Shown here piece after piece: positions 6,347 to 50,952 of a stretch of DNA of 64,000 nt. The stretch lies in the NCBI GenBank assembly GCA_030696045.1, contig JAUYNO010000051.1, forward strand, positions 1 to 64,000. The letters are read 5' to 3'. Below the pieces are notes generated by a model that did not search any database, was not told the origin of the DNA, and saw only the letters and a list, made by a program, of their open reading frames with translations. Numbering within the stretch: position 1 is the stretch's first letter; each line of letters begins with the position of its first letter. Both the position numbers and the translations under genes were made by a program. The DNA comes from Stagnimonas sp. (lineage in GTDB: Bacteria; Pseudomonadota; Gammaproteobacteria; Nevskiales; Nevskiaceae).

Positions 6347-8617
6347 ATGAAAAACATCGAACGCCCATCCGGCTTCACCGCCGGTCTGCTGGCCCTGCTG
6401 GTGGGCAGCTTGGTCGCCGGCTGCGGCAAGGACCCGGTACTGGGTGGAGCCGGCATGGCCGAGCTGGCGCCGAGCGTGATCGCCACCAGCCCGGTTGCCG
6501 GTGCCGTCGGAGTGGCCCTCGGCGCCCGGACCGTCACCGCCAGCTTCAGCAAGGCGATGAACCCCGCCACGCTGACCGGCGCCAGCTTCAGCCTGGCCTG
6601 CCCGGCTGGCACCGCCGTCGCGGGTGGCGTGAGCTACTCGACCGCCGGCAACATCGCCAGTTTTGTCGCCTCGGCCGATCTGCCCGGCGCCACGACCTGC
6701 ACGGCCACCGTCACCACCGCCGCCCAGGACAGCTTCGGCATTCCCCTGGACGCCGCCGTGAGCTGGAGCTTCACCACCGCGCCGCCGCCCGACACCACCG
6801 CGCCGCTGGTGAGTTCGACCACGCCGCTGGCCGGTGCCAGCGGCGTGGCATTCAACACCCTGGTCACCGCCAGCTTCAGTGAAGCAATGGACCCGCTCAG
6901 CATCAGCGGCGCCAGCTTCAGCCTGGCCTGTCCGGCCGGCACCGCCATCACCGCCACCGTGGCCTACGCCAGCAGCGGCAGCATCGCGACCCTGACGCCG
7001 GCGGCCAATCTGCCGCCGAGCACGGTCTGTGCCGCCAGCATTGCCACCACCGCCCGTGACGCCGCCGGCAATGCCCTCGCCAGCCCATTCAACTGGAGCT
7101 TCACCACCGGTGCCGCGCCCGACACCACGGCACCGACGGTGATCTCGACCGTGCCCGTCGCCGGCGCTACCGGAGTGGCCCTCAACACCCAGGTCAGCGC
7201 CAACTTCAGCGAGCCGATGAATCCCGCCAGCCTGAGCACCAGCAGCTTCAGCCTGGCCTGCCCGGCCGGCACCGCGCGGGCCGGCAGCGTGGCGTATTCG
7301 GGCAGTGGCAAGGCCGCCAGCTTCACCCCGGCGGCCAGCCTGCCGGCGAGCACCGCCTGCGCTGCCAGCATCAGCACCGGCGCCACCGACGCGGCCGGCA
7401 ATGCCCTGGCTGCCGCCTTTGCCTGGTCCTTCACCACCGGCGCCGCCGCCGATACCACCGCGCCGACGGTGATCTCGACCAATTCCGCCGACGGCGCGGT
7501 CGGGGTCTGCATCAACAAGACCATCAACGCCAGCTTCAGCGAGCCGATGGACCCGCTGAGCATCACCACCGCCAGCTTCACGCTGGCGATCACCGGCGGC
7601 GCCTCGGTGGCGGGCGTGGTGGCCTATGACAGCGCGACCCGGATCGCCAGCTTCAATCCCAGCGCGAACCTGATCGGCACACCGCCGACCGGCTACACCG
7701 CGACCATCAAGGGCGGCGTCAACGGCGTGAAGGATCTGGCGGGCAACCCCCTCGCCGCCGACCGCATCAGCCGCTTCACCACCAATGCCTCGACCTGCGC
7801 CGGCGCACCGGCGCTGGGCGCGGCGGCCAGCTTCGGCTCGTTCGGCGGCAACGCGACGCTGACCAATGACGGCCTCAACACGGTGATAAACGGCGATATC
7901 GGCGTCAACGCCGCGTCCACCACAATCACCGGTTTCCGCGATTCCGGCGGCAATGTCTACACGGTGACGCCCAACAACGACGGCAAGGTGAACGGTTTGG
8001 TCTACACCCTGACGGCACCGCCCGGCTCGGTCGCCGGCGAAGCGGTGACCGCCGCCCGCGCCGACGCCGTGCTGGCCTTCGACGCCATCTCGCCGGGCAA
8101 TCTGCCGGGCGGCCTCGACGTCTCCAGCCTGGCGCAATGCCCCAGCTGCGGCGGCGCCGGTGGCGGCCCCGACGAGCTGGCCGGACGCACCCTGCCACCG
8201 GGCGTGTACCTGTCCAGCACCGGCACCTATGACATCGGCGGCGCTGGCCGCACCACCGCCAGCCTGACGCTCGATGCCGGCGGCGATGCGAATGCGGTCT
8301 GGGTGTTCCAGACCGCGGCCGGCACCGGCACGCTCAATGTCGGGCTCACCGGCCCGGCGACACCGGCGGTGCCGATCCAGGTCCTGCTCATCAACGGCGC
8401 CCGGCCCAGGAACGTGTTCTGGTTCGTGCCCGGCGGCGCCAACATCGGCACCGGCTCGACCATGGTGGGAACCCTGCTGGCCGACGCCTCGATCACCCTG
8501 TCCACCACCGGTGGCAGTCCGCCGACGGCGGTGACCACCACCCTGGAAGGCCGGGCGATTGCCCTCACCGCGGCGGTGACGATGACCAATTCCGTCATCA
8601 ACCTGCCCACCCCCTAA
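6347..8617 (+). CDS. Ig-like (Big_5-type) repeat lipoprotein with C-terminal DUF3494 ice-binding-like domain
   Basis: Lipobox-like LVAGCG; about four repeats of the SxxPxxGAxGVAxxTxVxASFSExMDPxSISxxSFSLACPAG type; C-terminus ...GDIGVNAASTTITGF...LAGRTLPPGVYLSSTGTYDI...AVWVFQTAAGTGTLNVG...RNVFWFVPGGANIGTGSTMVGTLLADASITL, characteristic of DUF3494. Confidence 0.85.
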   Translation: MKNIERPSGFTAGLLALLVGSLVAGCGKDPVLGGAGMAELAPSVIATSPVAGAVGVALGARTVTASFSKAMNPATLTGASFSLACPAGTAVAGGVSYSTAGNIASFVASADLPGATTCTATVTTAAQDSFGIPLDAAVSWSFTTAPPPDTTAPLVSSTTPLAGASGVAFNTLVTASFSEAMDPLSISGASFSLACPAGTAITATVAYASSGSIATLTPAANLPPSTVCAASIATTARDAAGNALASPFNWSFTTGAAPDTTAPTVISTVPVAGATGVALNTQVSANFSEPMNPASLSTSSFSLACPAGTARAGSVAYSGSGKAASFTPAASLPASTACAASISTGATDAAGNALAAAFAWSFTTGAAADTTAPTVISTNSADGAVGVCINKTINASFSEPMDPLSITTASFTLAITGGASVAGVVAYDSATRIASFNPSANLIGTPPTGYTATIKGGVNGVKDLAGNPLAADRISRFTTNASTCAGAPALGAAASFGSFGGNATLTNDGLNTVINGDIGVNAASTTITGFRDSGGNVYTVTPNNDGKVNGLVYTLTAPPGSVAGEAVTAARADAVLAFDAISPGNLPGGLDVSSLAQCPSCGGAGGGPDELAGRTLPPGVYLSSTGTYDIGGAGRTTASLTLDAGGDANAVWVFQTAAGTGTLNVGLTGPATPAVPIQVLLINGARPRNVFWFVPGGANIGTGSTMVGTLLADASITLSTTGGSPPTAVTTTLEGRAIALTAAVTMTNSVINLPTP
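6470..7785 (+). repeat. four in-frame tandem repeats (about 310-340 nt each) encoding Ig-like domains
   Basis: Near-identical segment gccagcttcagcctggcctgcccggc recurs around 6580, 6908 and 7240; protein-level repeats run across 6470-7785. Confidence 0.7.
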
Positions 8618-16258: not shown

Positions 16259-17317
16259 ATGGTGAAGCTGGTCTGGAAGGTGCCCGGGCAGGCGCCTCTC
16301 GCATTTCCCCTGCGACAGGAGCGGGTCTCCGTTGGTCGCGATGCGGGCAACGACATCCGTCTGCCGGAACCGGCGGTCAGCTCGCGCCACGCCACCATCA
16401 TCCGCAAGGCCGGCCGGGTGGTGTTGCACGACCTCAAGTCCAGCAACGGCACCTGGGTCAACGGCGCCCGGATCGACAACCAGGAACTGGTCCACGGCGA
16501 CATGGTCGCGTTTGGCCGGGTGGTGATGGCCTTCATCGACGAAGACCTGGAAGCACCTGCGCCGCCGCCCAAGCCGGCGGCGCACGCCGATGCCCCGCCG
16601 CGCCGGGTGATCTCGGCGCCGCCGCCGTCACCTGCACCGTCACCTGCGGCATCGCCTGCACCGGTGCCGGCGCCCCCGTCGGCACCGCCGCCGCTGCCGC
16701 CCTTGGCCTGGCCCGCTCCAGCCAGCCCCGCGCGCGCCAGCAGCAGCAGCAGTAGCGTCGATCTGGAGGCAACCCTGCCACGGCTGGTGGCGATGGCGCC
16801 CGCCGCCGCTCCTGCCGCCGCGGATCAACCCGGATCCCTGGCGCTGGACGCGACCCTGCCGCGTCTGCTGGATCCCGCCGCCGGCGATACCCTGCCCCGC
16901 CCACCGCCACCGGTAGCGACCGGGCCGGACCTGAAGGAGCTGGACCGCCTGCTGGGGTCGATCCGCAGCTTCCGCGACCAGGAAACTGACGTGGTGCGGC
17001 AGCGGCAGGCGGAGCTGCTGCACGAGTGGCGCGCCACACTCAGCTATGCCGAGGCGATGAAGGCGCGTCTGGCCGACGAAAGCCGTATCCGCTTCTTCGA
17101 CGTCTCGGAACGCCGCCAGGAGATTGTGCTGCGCATCGTCCGCATCCCCGGCGAGCCGAACCGCCTGCTGTCCTTGACCTGGGGGCACCCGGACCAGCGC
17201 GACAAGGCGCCGGACGGCATCTGGATGCGCGCGACCCACAATCCCGACCGGCGCTTTTACAAGTCCGCCGAAGCGGTGCGCGAACTGGTGGCTACCTTGG
17301 CGTCATTTCTGGCGTAG
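16259..17317 (+). CDS. FHA-domain protein with Pro/Ala/Ser-rich linker and C-terminal helical domain
   Basis: RVSVGRDAGNDIRLPEPAVSSRHATIIRKAGRVVLHDLKSSNGTWVNGARIDNQELVHGDMVAFGRVVMAF; start at the internal ATG at 16259. Confidence 0.85.
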   Translation: MVKLVWKVPGQAPLAFPLRQERVSVGRDAGNDIRLPEPAVSSRHATIIRKAGRVVLHDLKSSNGTWVNGARIDNQELVHGDMVAFGRVVMAFIDEDLEAPAPPPKPAAHADAPPRRVISAPPPSPAPSPAASPAPVPAPPSAPPPLPPLAWPAPASPARASSSSSSVDLEATLPRLVAMAPAAAPAAADQPGSLALDATLPRLLDPAAGDTLPRPPPPVATGPDLKELDRLLGSIRSFRDQETDVVRQRQAELLHEWRATLSYAEAMKARLADESRIRFFDVSERRQEIVLRIVRIPGEPNRLLSLTWGHPDQRDKAPDGIWMRATHNPDRRFYKSAEAVRELVATLASFLA

Positions 17318-17388
17318 CCAGAAATGCTGAAGCGCTGATCTGGCGTAGCGAGAAATGCAAGGAGCTGATCTGGCGTAGCCGGAAATGC
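17304..17388 (+). repeat. three tandem copies of an about 30-nt unit CTGGCGTAGC(C/G)(A/G)GAAATGC...GCTGAT; copy 1 has a perfect 10-bp inverted repeat
   Basis: Copies at 17309-17327, 17340-17358, 17370-17388; CATTTCTGGC-GTA-GCCAGAAATG at 17304-17326. Confidence 0.8.
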
Positions 17389-21899: not shown

Positions 21900-22805
21900 T
21901 CAGCCGACCAGTTCCTCCAGGCCCTGCGCCAGCTTGGCCGGCGGCGGCATGCGGCCGGCGCTGCCGAGATCCAGGCCGATGGCTTCGAGCACGCGGCTGT
22001 CGAGCGTCATCAGGCTGGTATCCATGTCCTGGTGCCGCTCGACGCCGGCGGCGAAATGGCTGCCCAGGTTGATGCAGGCCGCCAGCCGGGAGAAGTCCTT
22101 GCCGGCCAGCGGCTCGGGCGCCTCGCGGATGGCAGCCACCATCGCCGGCGGAAAGCGCCAGCTCTCGGCCAGTTCGGCGCCGAGGTCGGAGTAGGCGAAG
22201 CCGACCCGGGACCGCTCGCAGAGCGCACGCTCGGGATCGTAGAACCGGGCCTGGCGCTCCACGTCGCGCAACTCCCCTTCCATCGACATCAGCATCAGCG
22301 GTTCGCCGATGGCATGCAGCAAGCCGGCAGTGAAGGCCGCTTGCGGGTCTTCCTTGGATTGGCAGGCGAAGTAGCGGGCGCAGACCGCCGTGTGCAGGCA
22401 GTAGCGCCAGAACAGCGCCCGCCCGAGCTCCGACGGCACCGGCACGCTGGCGGCGAAGCCGGCCCCGACCACCAGCATGCGCAGCGCGTCGAGGCCCATG
22501 AAGACGATGGCCTCGTCGATATTGGTGACGGTGCGGCTGCGCCGGTAATAGGCGGAGTTCGCCAGCCTCAGCACCTTGGCGGCGATCACCGGGTCGGTGT
22601 TCACCAGCCGGGCGACGCGCGGCAGGTTGATTTCGGGCTGATCGAAGGTGGCGATCAGCTCCTGCACCACCTTGGGCACCGTCGGCAGCGTGTGGATGCG
22701 GGACAGCAGCGAGGCAGAGGTGGCGAGCATGGGAGTCCACACATAGAGGGTCGGTGACTCCTCATCGGCCTCCCCCGGTATTTCTTTACCTCGCGGCATC
22801 GCCAC
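21900..22805 (-). CDS. HDOD domain-containing protein (likely start at internal ATG 22730)
   Basis: LPTVPKVVQELIATFDQPEINLPRVARLVNTDPVIAAKVLRLANSAYYRRSRTVTNIDEAIVFMGLDALRMLVVGAGFA; HDOD signature. Confidence 0.88.
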   Translation of the reverse strand: MAMPRGKEIPGEADEESPTLYVWTPMLATSASLLSRIHTLPTVPKVVQELIATFDQPEINLPRVARLVNTDPVIAAKVLRLANSAYYRRSRTVTNIDEAIVFMGLDALRMLVVGAGFAASVPVPSELGRALFWRYCLHTAVCARYFACQSKEDPQAAFTAGLLHAIGEPLMLMSMEGELRDVERQARFYDPERALCERSRVGFAYSDLGAELAESWRFPPAMVAAIREAPEPLAGKDFSRLAACINLGSHFAAGVERHQDMDTSLMTLDSRVLEAIGLDLGSAGRMPPPAKLAQGLEELVG

Positions 22806-22826
22806 CCGTCGGTGTCGCGATACCGC

Positions 22827-24173
22827 TCAGCCCTCGGTTTCCAGCATCTGGGCGAGATAGTGAATGTGGTGCGCGCCGGCGGTGAACACCGCATCGTCCA
22901 GAATGCGGCGCTGCAGAGCGATGTTGGTCTGGATGCCGTCCACCGCCATCTCCGACAGCGCGATGCGCATGCGCGCCATCGCCGATTCGCGGGTGACGCC
23001 GTAGGTGATCAGCTTGCCGATCATCGAGTCGTAGTTGGGCGGCACCCGGTAACCCGAGTAGCAGTGTGAATCAATGCGCACGCCCGGCCCGCCCGGCACA
23101 TGCCAGCGCTTGATCTCGCCCGGCGAGGGCACGAAGGTCTTGGGGTTCTCGGCATTGATGCGGCACTCGATGGCATGGCCGCGCGGAACCACTTGCGACT
23201 GGTCGATCCACAGCGTCTCGCCCCGCGCCACCCGGATCTGGGCCTGGATCAGGTCAATGCCGGTGACCAGTTCGGTGACGGGGTGCTCGACCTGGATACG
23301 GGTGTTCATCTCGATGAAGTAGAAGCGGCCCTTGGCGTACAGGAACTCCATGGTGCCGGCGCCGCGGTAACCGATGCGCTTGCAGGCCTCGACGCAGAGC
23401 GCGCCGACTTCGGCGCGCTGCTCGGCGGTGATGCCGGGCGCCGGGCTTTCCTCGATCACCTTCTGGTTGCGGCGCTGCATGGAGCAGTCGCGCTCGCCCA
23501 GGTGCACGCAATTGCCCTGGCCGTCAGCCAGCACCTGGATCTCGATGTGGCGCGGTTCCTCCAGGAATTTCTCCAGGAACACCGAGCCGTCCTTGAAGGC
23601 ATTGAGCGCCTCGGTGCGGGCGACATTGATCTTGCCGATCAGATCGGCTTCCTCGCGCACCACCTGCATGCCGCGACCGCCACCACCGGCGGCGGCCTTG
23701 ATGAGCACCGGATAGCCGACCTGGCGCGCGGTCTCGCGGCACTTGGCCTCGTCATCCGGCAGGCAGCCCTCGGAGCCGGGCACGCAGGGCACGCCGGCGG
23801 CGATCATCTCGGCCTTGGCGCTGGTCTTGCCGCCCATCAGGCGGATGGTCTCCGAGCGCGGGCCGATGAAGATGAAGCCGGATTTCTCGACGCTCTCGGC
23901 GAAGTCGGCGTTCTCGGACAGAAAGCCGTCGCCCGGATGGATGGCGTCGGCCTGGGTCACCTCGGCGGCCGAGATGATCGCCGCCATGTTGAGGTAGCTG
24001 CCGGAGGCCGCCGCCGGGCCGATGCAGACCGACTCATCGGCGAGCAAGACATGCTTGAGGTCGCGATCGGCGGTGGAATACACCGCCACCGTCTTGATGC
24101 CCATTTCCCGGCAGGCGCGCTGGATGCGCAGGGCAATTTCGCCGCGGTTGGCGATCAGGATCTTGTTGATCAT
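22827..24173 (-). CDS. accC: acetyl-CoA carboxylase biotin carboxylase subunit
   Basis: [53 protein letters not shown]...; 448 aa. Confidence 0.97.
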
Positions 24174-24180
24174 GTTTGGA

Positions 24181-24267
24181 CCGTGAGACGGGAGACGGGA
24201 GACGGGAGACGAGAAAACGGCGTCGCGCGGCTTCTACGTCTCGCGTCTCGCGTCTCCCGTCTCACGG
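24181..24267. repeat. 31-bp imperfect inverted repeat built from GGGAGAC heptamers in the accB-accC gap
   Basis: Arm 24181-24211 CCGTGAGACGGGAGACGGGAGACGGGAGACG; reverse complement of 24237-24267 is CCGTGAGACGGGAGACGCGAGACGCGAGACG (29/31 identical); 25-nt spacer. Confidence 0.9.
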
Positions 24268-24270
24268 GGT

Positions 24271-24750
24271 TCAGGCCGGGTCGATGGCGAACAGCGGCTG
24301 GTCGAACTCCACCGGCTTCTCGTTCTCGGCCAGCACGGCGGCGATCACGCCGTTCTTGTCGGCCTCGATCTGGTTCAGCATCTTCATGGCTTCGATGATG
24401 CAGAGCACCTGGCCAGCCTTGACCGTCTGCCCGACCTCGACGAAGGACTTCGCACCCGGCGAGGGCGAGCGGTAGAAGGTGCCCACCATCGGCGACTTGA
24501 CGATGTGCTGGTTGCTGGGCGGCGCGGCGGCCGGAGCCGGAGCACCGGTGGCCGGGGCGGCGACGGCGGGGGCGGGCCCGGACGGATAGGCCGGCGCGTA
24601 GCCACCCGGCGGCAGCAGCACCTGGTGCGCCATGCCGCCGGTGGGATAGCGGCTGATGCGCACGCTCTCCTCGCCTTCCTTCACTTCCAGCTCGGCAATG
24701 CCCGACTCCTCGACGAGGTCGATGAGGGTCTTGATCTTGCGCAGGTCCAT
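24271..24750 (-). CDS. accB: acetyl-CoA carboxylase biotin carboxyl carrier protein
   Basis: [34 protein letters not shown]...[48 protein letters not shown] (biotinyl motif EAMKM). Confidence 0.96.
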
Positions 24751-24815
24751 GGGGGCAACTCCGATGCGGAAGGGCCGGTGCGATGCCGGCGAAGGGTTGT
24801 AAGTGGGGGTACGGC

Positions 24816-25262
24816 TCAGCCCGGCGGGCAGAGGCGGTCGTGCAGGGCCAGCAAGGCCAGGCGGTAACCGATGGGGCCGCAGCCGACGATCACGCCAGCG
24901 GCTTTCTCGGACAGATGGGAGTGATGCCGGAACGCCTCGCGGGCGTAGACATTGGAGATGTGCACTTCCCAGTAGGGAATGCCGACCGCCAGCAGGGCGT
25001 CGCGCAGGGCGACGCTGGTGTGGGTGTAGGCACCGGCGTTGATGATGATCGCGGCCACGCCGTCACGGGCGGCCTGCTGGATGCGATCCACCAACTCGCC
25101 CTCGTGATTGGACTGGTAGCAGGCCAGCTGGTGACCGAGACCCGCCGCTTCGGCCTGCAGGCCGGCTTCGATGCCGGCCAGGGTCTGGCTGCCATACAGG
25201 CCCGGCTCGCGGCTACCGAGCAGATTCAGGTTGGGACCGTTGACCAGCAGGACTTGGCTCAA
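24816..25262 (-). CDS. aroQ: type II 3-dehydroquinate dehydratase
   Basis: [32 protein letters not shown]...[41 protein letters not shown]. Confidence 0.95.
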
Positions 25263-25397
25263 GGACTAGCGCCGCGATTCACGAACATGAACGGAGTCTG
25301 CCGCAGGGCCAGGCCCGAAGCAAATCACCGAAGATGCCCGCGACTTAGCAGATGTTGATGGCCAGTTCGTGAAACAGCCGTCAGGACTTGCGCACCA

Positions 25398-25976
25398 TCA
25401 CGGTGCTGCGGGCAGGAAGCGATGCACCAGCAGGTCGAGCTTGGTGGCGTCGATGCCGCCCATCTCCAGGTAGCGGATGCGCCCATCCGGGCTGATCAGC
25501 ACGGTGTAGGGGATGGCGCCCAGGCTATTGCCCAGCTGTTCCATGGCGCCCAGCACCGCCTCGTCACCGACCAGGGTCGGATAGTTGAAACCCAACTCCT
25601 GCACCGCCTTGCGCACGGCTTCCGGGTCATCCATGGCAATGCCCAGCACGCTCAGGCCGGCGGCCTGGTGCTGGCGCTGGGCCGCGATCAGCAGGGGGAT
25701 TTCTTCCATGCAGGGCCCACACCAGGTCGCCCAGAAGTTCACCAGCAGCCAGCGGCCGCGCCATTCCGAGAGCTTGCGCGGCTTGCCGTCGAGGTCGTTG
25801 AGGCTCAGGTCCGGCGCCGGCTCGCCTTCCAACGCGCGGTCCGCGCTCGGCACCCGTGGCACCCCTTCCGGGATCACCGGCGCCTGCAGCCGGCGCGCCA
25901 GCAGGAAGCCGCCGGTGGCGGCCAGCACCGCGATCAGCGTGGCAGCCAGCGCCTGTCTGGGCAGCACCACGCTCAA
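25398..25976 (-). CDS. TlpA-family thiol:disulfide reductase
   Basis: N-terminal TM/signal; LNDLDGKPRKLSEWRGRWLLVNFWATWCGPCMEEIPLL. Confidence 0.9.
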   Translation of the reverse strand: MSVVLPRQALAATLIAVLAATGGFLLARRLQAPVIPEGVPRVPSADRALEGEPAPDLSLNDLDGKPRKLSEWRGRWLLVNFWATWCGPCMEEIPLLIAAQRQHQAAGLSVLGIAMDDPEAVRKAVQELGFNYPTLVGDEAVLGAMEQLGNSLGAIPYTVLISPDGRIRYLEMGGIDATKLDLLVHRFLPAAP

Positions 25977-26434
25977 CGCACCGCGACCAGCTTGGTCTGG
26001 GGCGGATAGCAGACACCGATGTCGGCGCAGCCCTGGTAGCGCACCCGCAGCGTCTTGGGCTCGGGCGCCCCGGCAGCCAGTGGGATTTTCGCCGTCAGCG
26101 TACCGTGATAGGTCTGCACCTCGCCGAACTCGGGATCGTCCTTGACCTCGCCCTGCGGCAGCTCCGGCGCCGGCAGTTTCAGCTGCGCCGGCGAGTCGGC
26201 GCTCACCTTCAACTGGTGCCGGTACAGGTAATAGCCGGGGGCGATGCTCCAGCGCAGCACCAGGGCCTTGGCCTCACGGCTGACGCCCTCGAACTGGAAG
26301 GCCTGGTCGACCGGCAACAGCGCGTCCGCCTTCGGCTTGGCCTTGAGAAAGCCGTCGGCCGCCAGCGCCGGCAGGGCCGCACCCAGCAACAGGCTCAGGG
26401 CGAGGAAGGATCGGAAACCTGGGAGAGCAGCCAT
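25973..26434 (-). CDS. stand-alone DsbD N-terminal (nDsbD/DsbC-like) domain protein
   Basis: Signal peptide; FLKAKPKADALLPVDQAFQFEG...WSIAPGYYLYRHQLKV...LRVRYQGCADIGVCYPPQTKLVAVR*; lacks DsbD membrane and C-terminal domains; 4-nt overlap with the TlpA gene. Confidence 0.8.
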   Translation of the reverse strand: MAALPGFRSFLALSLLLGAALPALAADGFLKAKPKADALLPVDQAFQFEGVSREAKALVLRWSIAPGYYLYRHQLKVSADSPAQLKLPAPELPQGEVKDDPEFGEVQTYHGTLTAKIPLAAGAPEPKTLRVRYQGCADIGVCYPPQTKLVAVR

Positions 26435-26721
26435 TGGAGATAGGGCGGGTGAGCGTCGCTGAGCTTGACCGCGACGATTTCGGGAAGTTCGTAGGGATGC
26501 TTACGCAGGACCTCGGCGCGCAGATCATCGAAGCGATCAGCGGCCGTCTTGGCCAGCAGCAGGGTCTCGGCATCCTCGCAGACCTCGCCTTGCCAGCGAT
26601 AGATGGAGCGCACTCCCGGCAACAGATTGACACAGGCGGCCAGCCGCGCCTCCACCAGGTGCCGGGCCAGCGTCGGCGCGACAGCGGCAGGTGCGGTGAT
26701 GAGGACCAGCAGGGCGGACAT
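26395..26721 (-). CDS. cutA: divalent-cation tolerance protein CutA
   Basis: MSALLVLITAPAAVAPTLARHLVEARLAACVNLLPGVRSIYRWQGEVCEDAETLLLAKTAADRFDDLRAEVLRKHPYELPEIVAV; start at 26721 (upstream ORF extension is repeat DNA). Confidence 0.92.
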   Translation of the reverse strand: MSALLVLITAPAAVAPTLARHLVEARLAACVNLLPGVRSIYRWQGEVCEDAETLLLAKTAADRFDDLRAEVLRKHPYELPEIVAVKLSDAHPPYLQWLLSQVSDPSSP

Positions 26722-26725
26722 AGGC

Positions 26726-26819
26726 GGGAGACGGGAGACGGGAGACGGGAGACGGGAGACGGGAGACGGGAGACGGGAGACGGGAGACGGGAGACGGGAG
26801 ACGGGAGACGGGAGACGGG
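26726..26819. repeat. heptanucleotide tandem array (GGGAGAC)13 plus GGG
   Basis: Counted directly: 13 perfect consecutive GGGAGAC units from 26726 to 26816, then GGG. Confidence 0.97.
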
Positions 26820-26857
26820 CGGAGGATACTAGGCCGAACCTCCTGCCAGACGCCGCC

Positions 26858-27343
26858 ATGCCCACGATCCGTCCCGCCACTGCCGCCGACTGCGAGCTGA
26901 TCGTCACCCTGATCCGCGAGCTGGCCGAGTACGAGAAGCTGCTCGATCAGTGCCAGGCGACGCCGGCGGCGCTGTGCGAGTCGCTGTTCGGCGCCCGCCC
27001 CCAAGCAGAGTGCCTGATCGCCGAACACGAGGGCCAGGGCGCCGGCTTCGCCCTGTTTTTCCCCAACTACTCGACCTTCCTGGCCAAGCCGGGCCTGTAT
27101 CTGGAAGACCTCTACGTGCGGCCGGCAGCACGCGGCCTCGGCCTGGGCAAGGCCCTGCTGGCGGCGCTGGCGAGGCTGGCCGTCGAGCGCGGCTGCGGCC
27201 GCTTCGAGTGGAGCGTGCTGGACTGGAACGCGCCGGCGATCCGCTTCTACGAGAGCCTGGGCGCGATGCCGCAGGACGAATGGACCATATACCGGGTGAC
27301 CGGCGAGGCTTTGACCACACTGGCCGCGCAGGCACAGACGTAA
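26858..27343 (+). CDS. GNAT family N-acetyltransferase
   Basis: MPTIRPATAADCELIVTLIRELAEYEKL...YLEDLYVRPAARGLGLGKALLAALARLAVERGCGRFEWSVLDWNAPAIRFYESLGA; start ATG at 26858. Confidence 0.9.
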   Translation: MPTIRPATAADCELIVTLIRELAEYEKLLDQCQATPAALCESLFGARPQAECLIAEHEGQGAGFALFFPNYSTFLAKPGLYLEDLYVRPAARGLGLGKALLAALARLAVERGCGRFEWSVLDWNAPAIRFYESLGAMPQDEWTIYRVTGEALTTLAAQAQT

Positions 27344-27377
27344 ACTGCGCGCCTTGCCACGACACCGCGCTACCGCC

Positions 27378-30300
27378 ATGTCCGCCTACGTCTTCGCCCA
27401 GCCCCTGCCCGAACGCGACGCCCTGCGCCGCGCCATCTCCGCCGCCTACCTCGCCGACGAAACCGCCCTGGTCAACAAGCTGCTGGGCCTCGCCGCCCTG
27501 CCCAGCGAACACGCCAGCCTGGTGGTGCGCCAGGCCGCCGGCTGGGTCGAGCGGGTGCGCCGGCTGAAGAACGAGCAGTCGCCGCTCGATGCCTTCATGC
27601 AGCAGTACGACCTGTCGAGCGAGGAAGGCGTGCTGCTGATGTGCCTGGCCGAGGCGCTGCTGCGCATCCCCGACGACGCCACCGCCGACAAGCTGATCGC
27701 CGACAAGCTCGGCGATGCCGACTGGGAATCCCATTTCGGCAAATCAGACTCACTGTTCGTCAACGCCGGCACCTGGGGCCTGATGCTGACCGGCAAGATC
27801 GTCAAGCTGGCGCCCGACACCACCTCCAATTTCCGCCAGGCGCTCAACAAGCTGGTGGCGAAGTCGACCGAGCCGGTGATCCAGCTCGCGGTGCGGCAGG
27901 CGATGCGGCTGATGGGCTCGCAGTTCGTGATGGGCCGTACCATCAACGAAGCGCTGAAGAACGCCCGCAGCAAGGCGCATCGAACCTACCTGCACAGTTA
28001 CGACATGCTCGGCGAGGCCGCACTCACCGGCGCCGACGCCGAGCGCTACTTCAAGGCCTACCAGGACGCCATCGCCGCCATCGGCAAGGCGGTGCGCGAG
28101 GATGCGGTGTTCGCCCAGGCGCCGATCTACGGCCGCCCGAACATCTCGGTGAAACTCTCGGCCCTGCATCCGCGCTACGAACTGGCCAAGCGCGCCCGCG
28201 TGCTCAGCGAACTGGTGCCGAAGCTGCTGGCGCTGGCGGTACAGGCCAAGAACGAGGGCATCGGCCTGACCGTCGATGCCGAGGAAGCGGACCGACTCGA
28301 ACTCTCGCTCGACGTGATCGAATCGGTCTACGCCGATGCCTCACTGGAAGGCTACGAAGGCTTCGGCCTGGCGGTGCAGGCCTTCCAGAAGCGCGGCCTC
28401 GCCGTGGTCGACTGGCTGGAGCAGCTCGCCCGCCGCGTCGGTCGCAAGCTCGCCGTGCGCCTGGTCAAGGGCGCCTACTGGGACACCGAGGTCAAGCGCT
28501 CGCAGGAGCAGGGGCTGGCCGGCTATCCGGTGTACACCCGCAAGGCCAATACCGACGTCGCCTACCTCGCCTGCGCCCGCCGCCTGCTAGCCGCGCGTGA
28601 GGTGTTCTACCCCATGCTCGCCACCCACAACGCCCACACCGTCGCGGCGGTGCGCGCCTACGCTGGCGACGAGCTGGGCTACGAATTCCAGCGCCTGCAC
28701 GGCATGGGCGAGGCGCTGTACCAGATCGTCAAGGAAGACCTGCCCCTGCCCTGCCGCGTCTACTCGCCGGTGGGCTCGCACGAGGACCTGCTGCCCTATC
28801 TGGTGCGGCGGCTGCTGGAGAACGGCGCCAACACCTCCTTCGTCAACCGCATCTTCGACGACAACACGCCGCCGGAATCCCTGGTCGCCGACCCGGTCGC
28901 GGCGGTGCGCGCGCTGGCGGTGAAGATCAACCCGCACCTGCCGCTGCCGGCCGAGCTGTATGGCGCCGAGCGGCGCAATTCGGCGGGACTGTTCCTCAGT
29001 TCGGAACCGGACCTGCAAGCGCTGGCCGCTCAGCTCGCGGCCACGACGGCACCCGGCCACGCCGTGTCGCTGACCGCCAGCCCGGCCATGCCCGGCGAAA
29101 CCCAAGCGGTCACCAACCCCGCCGACCGCCGCCAGAAGCTGGGCGAGTGGACAGCACTGCACCTGACCGCCGTGCCGGCGCTGATCGCCGAGGCCCGCAC
29201 CGCCCAGCCGCGCTGGAACGCCCAGTCCGCCGATGCCCGCGCCTCGATCCTGGAGCGTGCCGCCGACCGCCTGGAAGCCGACCCCGCCGTCTACCTGCAA
29301 CTGTTGCTGCGGGAGGCCGGCAAGACCCTGTCCGACGCCAACGCCGAGGTGCGCGAGGCAGTGGACTTCCTGCGCTACTACGCCGCGCAGGCGCGCCGGC
29401 TCATGAGCACACCGACCACCCTGCCCGGCCCCACCGGCGAGCACAACGAGCTGCAGCTGCACGGCAAGGGCGTGTTCGTCTGCATCTCGCCCTGGAACTT
29501 CCCGCTCGCCATCTTCGCCGGTCAGATCGCCGCCGCGCTGGCCGCCGGCAATGCGGTGATCGCCAAGCCGGCCGAGCAGACCAATCTGATCGCCCACGCC
29601 TTCGCGCAACTGCTGCACGAGGCCGGCGTGCCGCGCGCGGTGCTGCAGCTGGCACTGGGCGACGGCCTGATCGGTGGCGCCCTGGTGGGCGCCGAGGGCA
29701 TCGCCGGCGTCGCCTTCACCGGCTCGGTCGAAGTGGCGCAGAAGATCAACCGCAGCCTCGCCGCCAAGCCCGGCCCCATCGCCACCCTGATCGCCGAAAC
29801 CGGCGGCCAGAACGCGATGATCGTCGATAGCTCGGCGCTCCCCGAGCAGGTGGTGAAGGACGCCATCAACAGCGCCTTCTATTCCGCCGGCCAGCGTTGC
29901 AGCGCTCTGCGCGTGCTCTGCGTGCAGAGCGAGATCGCCGACAAGGTCGCGCATCTGCTCGCCGGTGCGATGCAGGAGCTGGTGATCGGTGATCCGGCTC
30001 TGCTGGCGACCGATATTGGTCCGGTGATCGACGAGGAAGCGCGCAGCAAGCTGCAGGCCCACGCCGAAGTCATGCGTCGCGACGGCAAGCGCATCGGCGA
30101 AGTACTGCTGCCGGCCGGTACCGAGTTCGGCAGCTTCGTGTCACCGCTGGCGGTGGAGATGGACAGCCTGTCGCAGCTGCGCGAGGAGCAGTTCGGCCCG
30201 ATCCTGCACTTGGTCCGCTTCGAGTCCGATCAGCTGGAGAGCCTGATCGAGCAGATCAACGCGCTCGGCTACGGCCTGACCCTGGGCGTGCACTCGCGCA

Positions 30301-30536
30301 TCGAGCGCACCTGGCGCACCGTGCAGGCGCGGGCGCAGGTCGGCAACACCTACATCAATCGCGGCATGACCGGCGCGGTGGTGGGCGTGCAGCCCTTCGG
30401 CGGCGAAGGCCTGAGCGGCACCGGCCCCAAGGCCGGCGGCCCGCACTACCTGCTGCGCTTCATCAGCGAGCGGACCTTGACCGTGAACACCTCCGCAGTC
30501 GGTGGCAACGCACGACTGCTGGCCGCCAGCGCCTGA
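27378..30536 (+). CDS. putA: bifunctional proline dehydrogenase / delta-1-pyrroline-5-carboxylate dehydrogenase PutA (no N-terminal RHH DNA-binding domain visible)
   Basis: PRODH segments ([19 protein letters not shown]..., [20 protein letters not shown]) and ALDH segments ([32 protein letters not shown]..., [15 protein letters not shown]). Confidence 0.95.
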   Translation: [1052 protein letters not shown]

Positions 30537-30558
30537 GGTGAACCAGGGACGGCGCCGT

Positions 30559-30789
30559 TCAGCGCGGCGCCGTTTCGAGACTGCAAGCCAGCCGCAGACC
30601 GGGCTGGCTGTCGCAGCCCGCGTCGGCCCGAGCCGGCTTGCTCAGTGCCGGCCGCTGGCCGAGGTCGTCGGAACCCGCCGGCGCGCTGTTCGCCATCAAG
30701 GCGCCGAACAGCGAACCCGCCGCGAACATCGTCAGCAACAGCACGCGGCGGCGGCGGCGCCATTCCATTTCATCGTAGATCCGCAGCAT
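30559..30789 (-). CDS. small membrane protein, hypothetical
   Basis: MLRIYDEMEWRRRRRVLLLTMFAAGSLFGALMANSAPAG...; one TM segment; start taken at 30789. Confidence 0.45.
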   Translation of the reverse strand: MLRIYDEMEWRRRRRVLLLTMFAAGSLFGALMANSAPAGSDDLGQRPALSKPARADAGCDSQPGLRLACSLETAPR

Positions 30790-30889
30790 GGGACATTCCG
30801 TGTCGGGGCATGCCGACAGTGGAACCGCTGTGCGGGCCCGCCATCCGTGGCGGGCGATGGACGGCGCAGTGGCGCCGACCAGAGCGAAC

Positions 30890-31771
30890 TCAGCGCTTTT
30901 CCAGGCTGACGTCGCCGGAGAAGCTGGTGAGACTGATGTTGCCGCGACCGTCACCGAGCTTGAGCACGGTGCGGCGGCCATCGGCAGTCGGCGACACGCC
31001 TTCGAAGTCGCAGCGCTTCTCGCCGCTGAAGGTCTTCAAGGTGACCTGCGCCGACAGCGCCGCCGGGGCATCGAAGCGGACATCGCCGGACAGCGACTCG
31101 GCCTTGACCAGGGCGTCCGGCGCCGCCGCGCCGTGGATGTCGACGTCACCGGAAACCGACTTCAGTTCCAGCCGGGAGAACACGCCGCCCTCGATGCGGA
31201 CGTCGCCGGACACCGACTCGGCGCTCAGCTCGCCGGCCGCGCCCTGCACATCGGCATCGCCGCTGACCGTGCTGACCTTGGTGTTGGTCGCGTGCGGCGC
31301 CAGCACCGTCAGGTCACCGCTGACGGTCTGCGCGCTCACGGATCGGGAATTCACCTCGATCTGCACGTCGCCGCTCACGGTGCGCGCCAGCAGATCACCC
31401 TTGAGGCCCCGCACGATCAGGTCGGCGCTGGTGCCGTCGAGGGTCAGCGCCACGCCGGCCGGCACCCGCAGCCGCAGCTGGGTGTCGTCGTAGGCGCCGT
31501 AGCGCTCGGCTTTCTTGGTGCGCACTTCGACCCGCAGGTCGGCGGCGCTGCCGCTGATGTCGACCTTCTCGACGTTGTCGGCGAGCAGGGCGGCGATGTC
31601 GAGCGTGGCCTTGTCCCAGGCTTCGACCTCGATCACGCCGGCGACATTGCGGACATTCAGCCGGGCCTCGGCATTGAGCGGACGGCTGTCGGAAAACTCA
31701 CGGGGCGCGGCCTGCGCCAGGCTGATGCCCAGCATCAGGCTGGCAAAGACGGGAATGGTGGTATGTCGCAT
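30890..31771 (-). CDS. DUF4097-family beta-strand repeat secreted protein
   Basis: Signal peptide; repeated (S/T)VSGDV units (ARTVSGDVQIEV, AQTVSGDLTV, VSTVSGDADV, AESVSGDVRI, LKSVSGDVDI). Confidence 0.85.
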   Translation of the reverse strand: MRHTTIPVFASLMLGISLAQAAPREFSDSRPLNAEARLNVRNVAGVIEVEAWDKATLDIAALLADNVEKVDISGSAADLRVEVRTKKAERYGAYDDTQLRLRVPAGVALTLDGTSADLIVRGLKGDLLARTVSGDVQIEVNSRSVSAQTVSGDLTVLAPHATNTKVSTVSGDADVQGAAGELSAESVSGDVRIEGGVFSRLELKSVSGDVDIHGAAAPDALVKAESLSGDVRFDAPAALSAQVTLKTFSGEKRCDFEGVSPTADGRRTVLKLGDGRGNISLTSFSGDVSLEKR

Positions 31772-50862: not shown

Positions 50863-50952
50863 GGCGTCACTCCGGGCGGGAGACGGGCAGCGGGCCGAAA
50901 TCATAGCCCGCGCCGAATTCCGGGGCGCGGATGCGCAAGCCGCCCCGCCGCA

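Follow-up and report, generated by a model that had tools for sequence, protein, structure and literature searches.

A (GGGAGAC)13 array beside cutA of Stagnimonas sp. as a probable member of a dispersed family of heptamer repeats

Introduction

Rickettsia palindromic elements are palindromic repeats that occur in frame within housekeeping genes, and REP/BIME elements form intercistronic hairpins in operons. Closer to the array described here are the quadruplex-forming heptamer simple sequence repeats (SSRs) GGGAATC of Xanthomonas and GGGGA(C/T)T of Nostoc (Rehm et al. 2015; PMC4692102). Those repeats are dispersed and mostly intergenic, with a four-unit mode, rare long arrays and convergent pairs, and their lengths differ at conserved positions (PMC4692102). 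Ahead of start codons their G-rich strand is the antisense strand, and behind stop codons it is the sense strand (PMC4692102). Heptamer SSRs of similar length also vary among strains of X. euvesicatoria (PMC8002079). A literature search for "short tandemly repeated repetitive" found nothing.

The present analysis concerns a GGGAGAC array in a 64,000-nucleotide stretch of Stagnimonas sp. DNA (the window), located between cutA and a GNAT acetyltransferase gene. From its shared hallmarks, the array can be assigned to the Xanthomonas and Nostoc kind of heptamer SSR, its quadruplex being a prediction, and this poorly understood class of bacterial repeats is thereby extended to another lineage.

Results

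Position of the array beside cutA

The array was called by TRF at 26725–26819 with a period of 7, 13.6 copies and a 100% match. Direct reading of the + strand resolved (GGGAGAC)13 at 26726–26816 and a terminal GGG to 26819, giving 14 GGG runs and confirming the 13 perfect units of the preliminary description at 26726–26819. The length of the array is far beyond chance, as its perfect period-7 tract covers 94 bases compared to a maximum of 20 when the window was simulated 200 times with a first-order Markov model. An assembly artefact, raised earlier as a possible source of the array, is unlikely since the array is internal to a 126.8-kb contig and a heptamer array occupies the same place in two related assemblies.

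The cutA gene (26395–26721, minus strand) was identified by PF03091 (E 3.7e-34), and the same start with an abutting array could be seen in two sister species, G003 and G004. Its start codon (26721–26719) is separated from the array by 4 nt (26722–26725). The GNAT gene (26858–27343, + strand; PF00583, E 7.3e-22) diverges from cutA, keeps its synteny in G003 and G004, and has its ATG at 26858, 38 nt past the array. The measured distances and the Pfam domains agree with the placement of the array beside the cutA start and ahead of GNAT that had been read from the sequence. The + strand of the array is G-rich, and the cutA mRNA sense is accordingly C-rich. The array had also been suggested to take the place of the cutA Shine-Dalgarno (SD) sequence, which was borne out; no SD is visible ahead of cutA in the window genome, G003 or G004 (three species). 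A comparison of 22000–31000 with Rfam gave no match. The lone GGGAGACGGG reported at 50878–50887 is present.

Two other tandem repeats were noted in the window, namely a 330-bp repeat at 6763–7587 (approximately 2.5 copies, 74–76% match), which probably belongs to a repeat-domain protein, and a 30-bp unit in 2.6 copies at 17308–17388.

Paired array between accC and accB

The window contains a second GGGAGAC locus, absent from the preliminary description, in the form of a paired array at 24183–24266 between accC and accB. The first arm (24183–24211, + strand), with the four units GTGAGAC(GGGAGAC)3, immediately precedes the start codon of accC (24173, minus strand). The second, convergent arm (24237–24266, minus strand), also of four units, follows the accB stop and pairs with the first in the mRNA, with a predicted fold of −66.7 kcal/mol. 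The gap that carries these convergent arms (24174–24270) is filled in G003 (C2; L267) by a sequence of about 380 bp with long terminal inverted repeats (GGACCTGTGAACGCTATGGGA...), and similar stretches are present at other places in G003.

Distribution of GGGAGAC arrays in the genome

A genome-wide count of GGGAGAC arrays had been proposed in the preliminary description, and it was run here on the genome holding the window (G000; 4.28 Mb, 104 contigs). The search with two near-perfect GGGAGAC units revealed 63 matches at no fewer than 19 loci (at least 19) on 17 contigs, against 0 matches for the reversed-pattern control. When up to two mismatches per unit were allowed and the cutA array was added to the fetched loci, exactly four units were found in 22 of 28 array arms; the others had 3, 5, 5, 5, 6 and, at cutA, 13 units.

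Convergent arm pairs occur at ten loci and divergent pairs at none. RNA folding of the ten convergent pairs predicted strong hairpins (−32 to −81 kcal/mol), and the spacers between paired arms look unrelated from locus to locus. In a test for mirror-image variants, the paired arms had 6 deviations in common where 2.5 were expected (permutation p 0.02), a signal too weak to use. At nearly all intergenic arrays, the mRNA has the G-rich sequence where the array follows a stop and the C-rich sequence where it precedes a start, the C9 locus being ambiguous; this rule was read by eye from the neighbouring genes and carries no statistic. Housekeeping genes make up most of the neighbours (dnaK-dnaJ, accB-accC, sdhA-sdhB, nadA-glyA, gatA, murC, prkA-DUF444, gcvP and valS), while partners such as gatC, murG and hemA were named by sequence reading only. 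At dnaK-dnaJ, a terminator-like hairpin of G003 (C3; L047 in G000) already holds GACGTGAGACG, a possible seed of the longer G000 array.

Several arrays are found inside genes. The UvrA protein of G000 is 19 aa longer than that of G003 at the array, in frame, and its HrpA is likewise longer than the G003 protein at an in-frame array. Peptides of the VSRLPS type are encoded by arrays in rsmG, valS, a PKS and an E2 subunit of G000. Such in-frame arrays in essential enzymes show a route of these repeats into proteins. Between murG and murC, the array of G000 corresponds to a clean empty site in G003.

Heptamer arrays in related genomes

GGGAGAC arrays were found in 6 of the 100 genomes searched, G000 included, and in none of four same-genus genomes; the most matches occurred in G035. 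Two of these same-genus genomes, G003 and G004, were compared further, with one genome per species and about 2 Mb of G003 read. They carry arrays of another heptamer, GCGGATT, with 105 matches in G003 and 80 in G004, and G000 itself has two GCGGATT loci. A taxon-wide scan produced many phyla among the matches listed, and no distribution claims are based on it.

The cutA start codon abuts an array in all three species with synteny kept, the unit being GGGAGAC in G000 and GCGGATT in both G003 and G004. The array has 13.6 units in G000, about 9.6 units (67 bp) in G003 and 7 units (49 bp) in G004. In 27 more distantly related genomes, the region upstream of cutA held no array, only chance-length matches of 14–15 bases. 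Judging from these sequences, a heptamer array is persistent at cutA while its unit and copy number differ.

G003 and G004 have several further array sites in common, where copy number is again very different (15 vs 3.4, 9 vs 15 and 4.5 vs 11.6). The lengths of GCGGATT arrays in G003 are broadly spread with no four-unit mode. The C99 locus of G000 holds GCGGATT in both G000 and G003 at unequal lengths, and the GCGGATT site at G003 C1:331692 has GCGGAGT as its G000 counterpart; the remaining mappable G003 array sites are empty or hold other sequence in G000. At two GCGGATT sites of G003, an inverted element with CCCTCCCCCTTGCGGGGAGGG was observed in G000 (L335, L340), which indicates that one intergenic site can be taken by dispersed elements of different kinds. 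A 65-bp array of a further heptamer, GTGAGGC, is present in G003 (L219:5328), and control matches point to probable arrays in G004, G035 and G021.

The different heptamer at the orthologous cutA site, the single GGGAGAC/GCGGATT case, may reflect replacement or two independent gains. It is conceivable, though rather doubtful, that array sites are kept between sister species while the unit is replaced, as at cutA (GGGAGAC/GCGGATT) and the second site (GCGGAGT/GCGGATT), with one dominant unit per genome. If so, a copying or conversion process would impose a species-specific 7-mer on conserved positions, and the constraint would be period 7, with quadruplex capacity shaping the preferred length only. 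From about 19 and about 20 loci and about 3500 gene boundaries, occupancy of one site by both units is expected by chance about 0.1 times (calculated by hand), so that the coincidence at cutA does not by itself argue strongly that the unit was replaced.

Discussion

The cutA array can best be explained, with a probability of about 0.65, as a single arm that belongs to a dispersed, slippage-prone family of G-rich heptamer SSRs, has expanded locally and is tolerated in the cutA leader. New copies would arise at scattered sites, and selection would retain those that lie close to a gene boundary or preserve the reading frame and whose orientation keeps SD-like or quadruplex-forming G-rich RNA away from the region immediately ahead of a start codon. 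An existing array could then change its length by replication slippage or unequal exchange, and slippage within the species is plausible; at cutA, growth of this kind would have led to the 13 units. As part of the cutA mRNA, the array would form a largely unstructured C-rich leader without SD, in keeping with the folding prediction, in which the C-rich strand of GGGAGAC is unstructured. Because of these properties, the effect of the array on cutA and GNAT is probably passive. Two observations run against the best reading: all three species have kept an array at cutA, built from two different units, which could point to a use at this site, and the preference for four units hints at a constraint in addition to neutral slippage.

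The preliminary description had viewed the array as a possible contingency locus; on this reading, slippage would switch or tune cutA and GNAT through promoter or leader length. A long perfect SSR within a short divergent intergenic region, the unequal copy number between species at cutA, and the variation of similar heptamer SSRs within a Xanthomonas species (PMC8002079) would all suit such a role. It is nevertheless improbable, since the genome has at least 19 such loci, for the most part with housekeeping genes as neighbours, and the different 7-letter word at cutA in the sister species speaks against a dedicated cutA switch. No sigma-70-like site was found in 26640–26920, which leaves room for other promoter types, and no SD is visible ahead of cutA in the three species. 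Phase variation was moreover judged unlikely by Rehm et al. for the same kind of repeat (PMC4692102).

A functional G-quadruplex, folded from four or more G3 tracts on the + strand and regulating transcription or replication, appears unlikely, if slightly less so than the switch. The G3N4 pattern noted earlier does fit the + strand with its 14 GGG runs, RNA folding predicts a quadruplex for GGGAGAC and none for GCGGATT, and CD evidence exists for GGGAATC (PMC4692102). Arrays of GGG units also mostly have four units, both here (22 of 28 arms) and in Xanthomonas, whereas the spread of the GG unit GCGGATT in G003 is broad; that the four-unit mode tracks GGG units lends this reading some support. 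Conservation of the pattern at cutA failed, however: the arrays of G003 and G004 at this site consist of GCGGATT with GG tracts only, and a three-tetrad (G3) quadruplex is therefore not conserved there. Convergent pairs would, in addition, compete by forming hairpins. Copying of the arrays by a dedicated transposase, as in a REP/MITE-like mobile family, would account for the dispersal, the inverted pairs and the shorter or empty orthologous sites. This explanation is improbable as well, as the spacers between arms look unrelated among loci and PF01797 (REP-associated transposase) has no match in G035, the genome richest in GGGAGAC matches. In G003, the distance read at the C1 copy of PF01797 was about 4.4 kb to the nearest array, and no general association with mobile elements was found by Rehm et al. 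(PMC4692102).

The repeats of these genomes provide a natural experiment, since the unit has a G3 tract in one species and a G2 tract in its relatives, in one case at an identical site. This comparison would allow quadruplex capacity, hairpin formation and simple slippage to be told apart.

Comparison with known systems

Unlike Rickettsia palindromic elements, the GGGAGAC arms consist of heptamers in tandem, and the spacers between them are not conserved. This make-up also sets the arms apart from REP/BIME elements, and no transposase gene linked to them was seen in a search for PF01797 that covered the C1 copy of G003 and the G035 genome; G000 has a PF01797 copy too. The repeats of Rehm et al. 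share with GGGAGAC the GGG-tract tandem heptamer, the mostly intergenic dispersal, the four-unit mode with rare long arrays, the convergent pairs, the orientation and the unequal lengths at conserved positions, although the cutA copy itself has 13 units. They differ in that the GGGAGAC unit is found in another bacterial family (Nevskiaceae) and occupies about 19 rather than about 185 loci, its intragenic share looks higher, and sister species of G000 use the GG unit GCGGATT, also at cutA. The cutA copy is further flanked by two divergent genes, an arrangement that is under-represented among the Xanthomonas repeats. The MLVA heptamer VNTRs of Xanthomonas (PMC8002079) are likewise SSRs with a 7-bp unit, repeated about 4 to 18 times; their lengths are known at the strain level, whereas the cutA array was compared between species.
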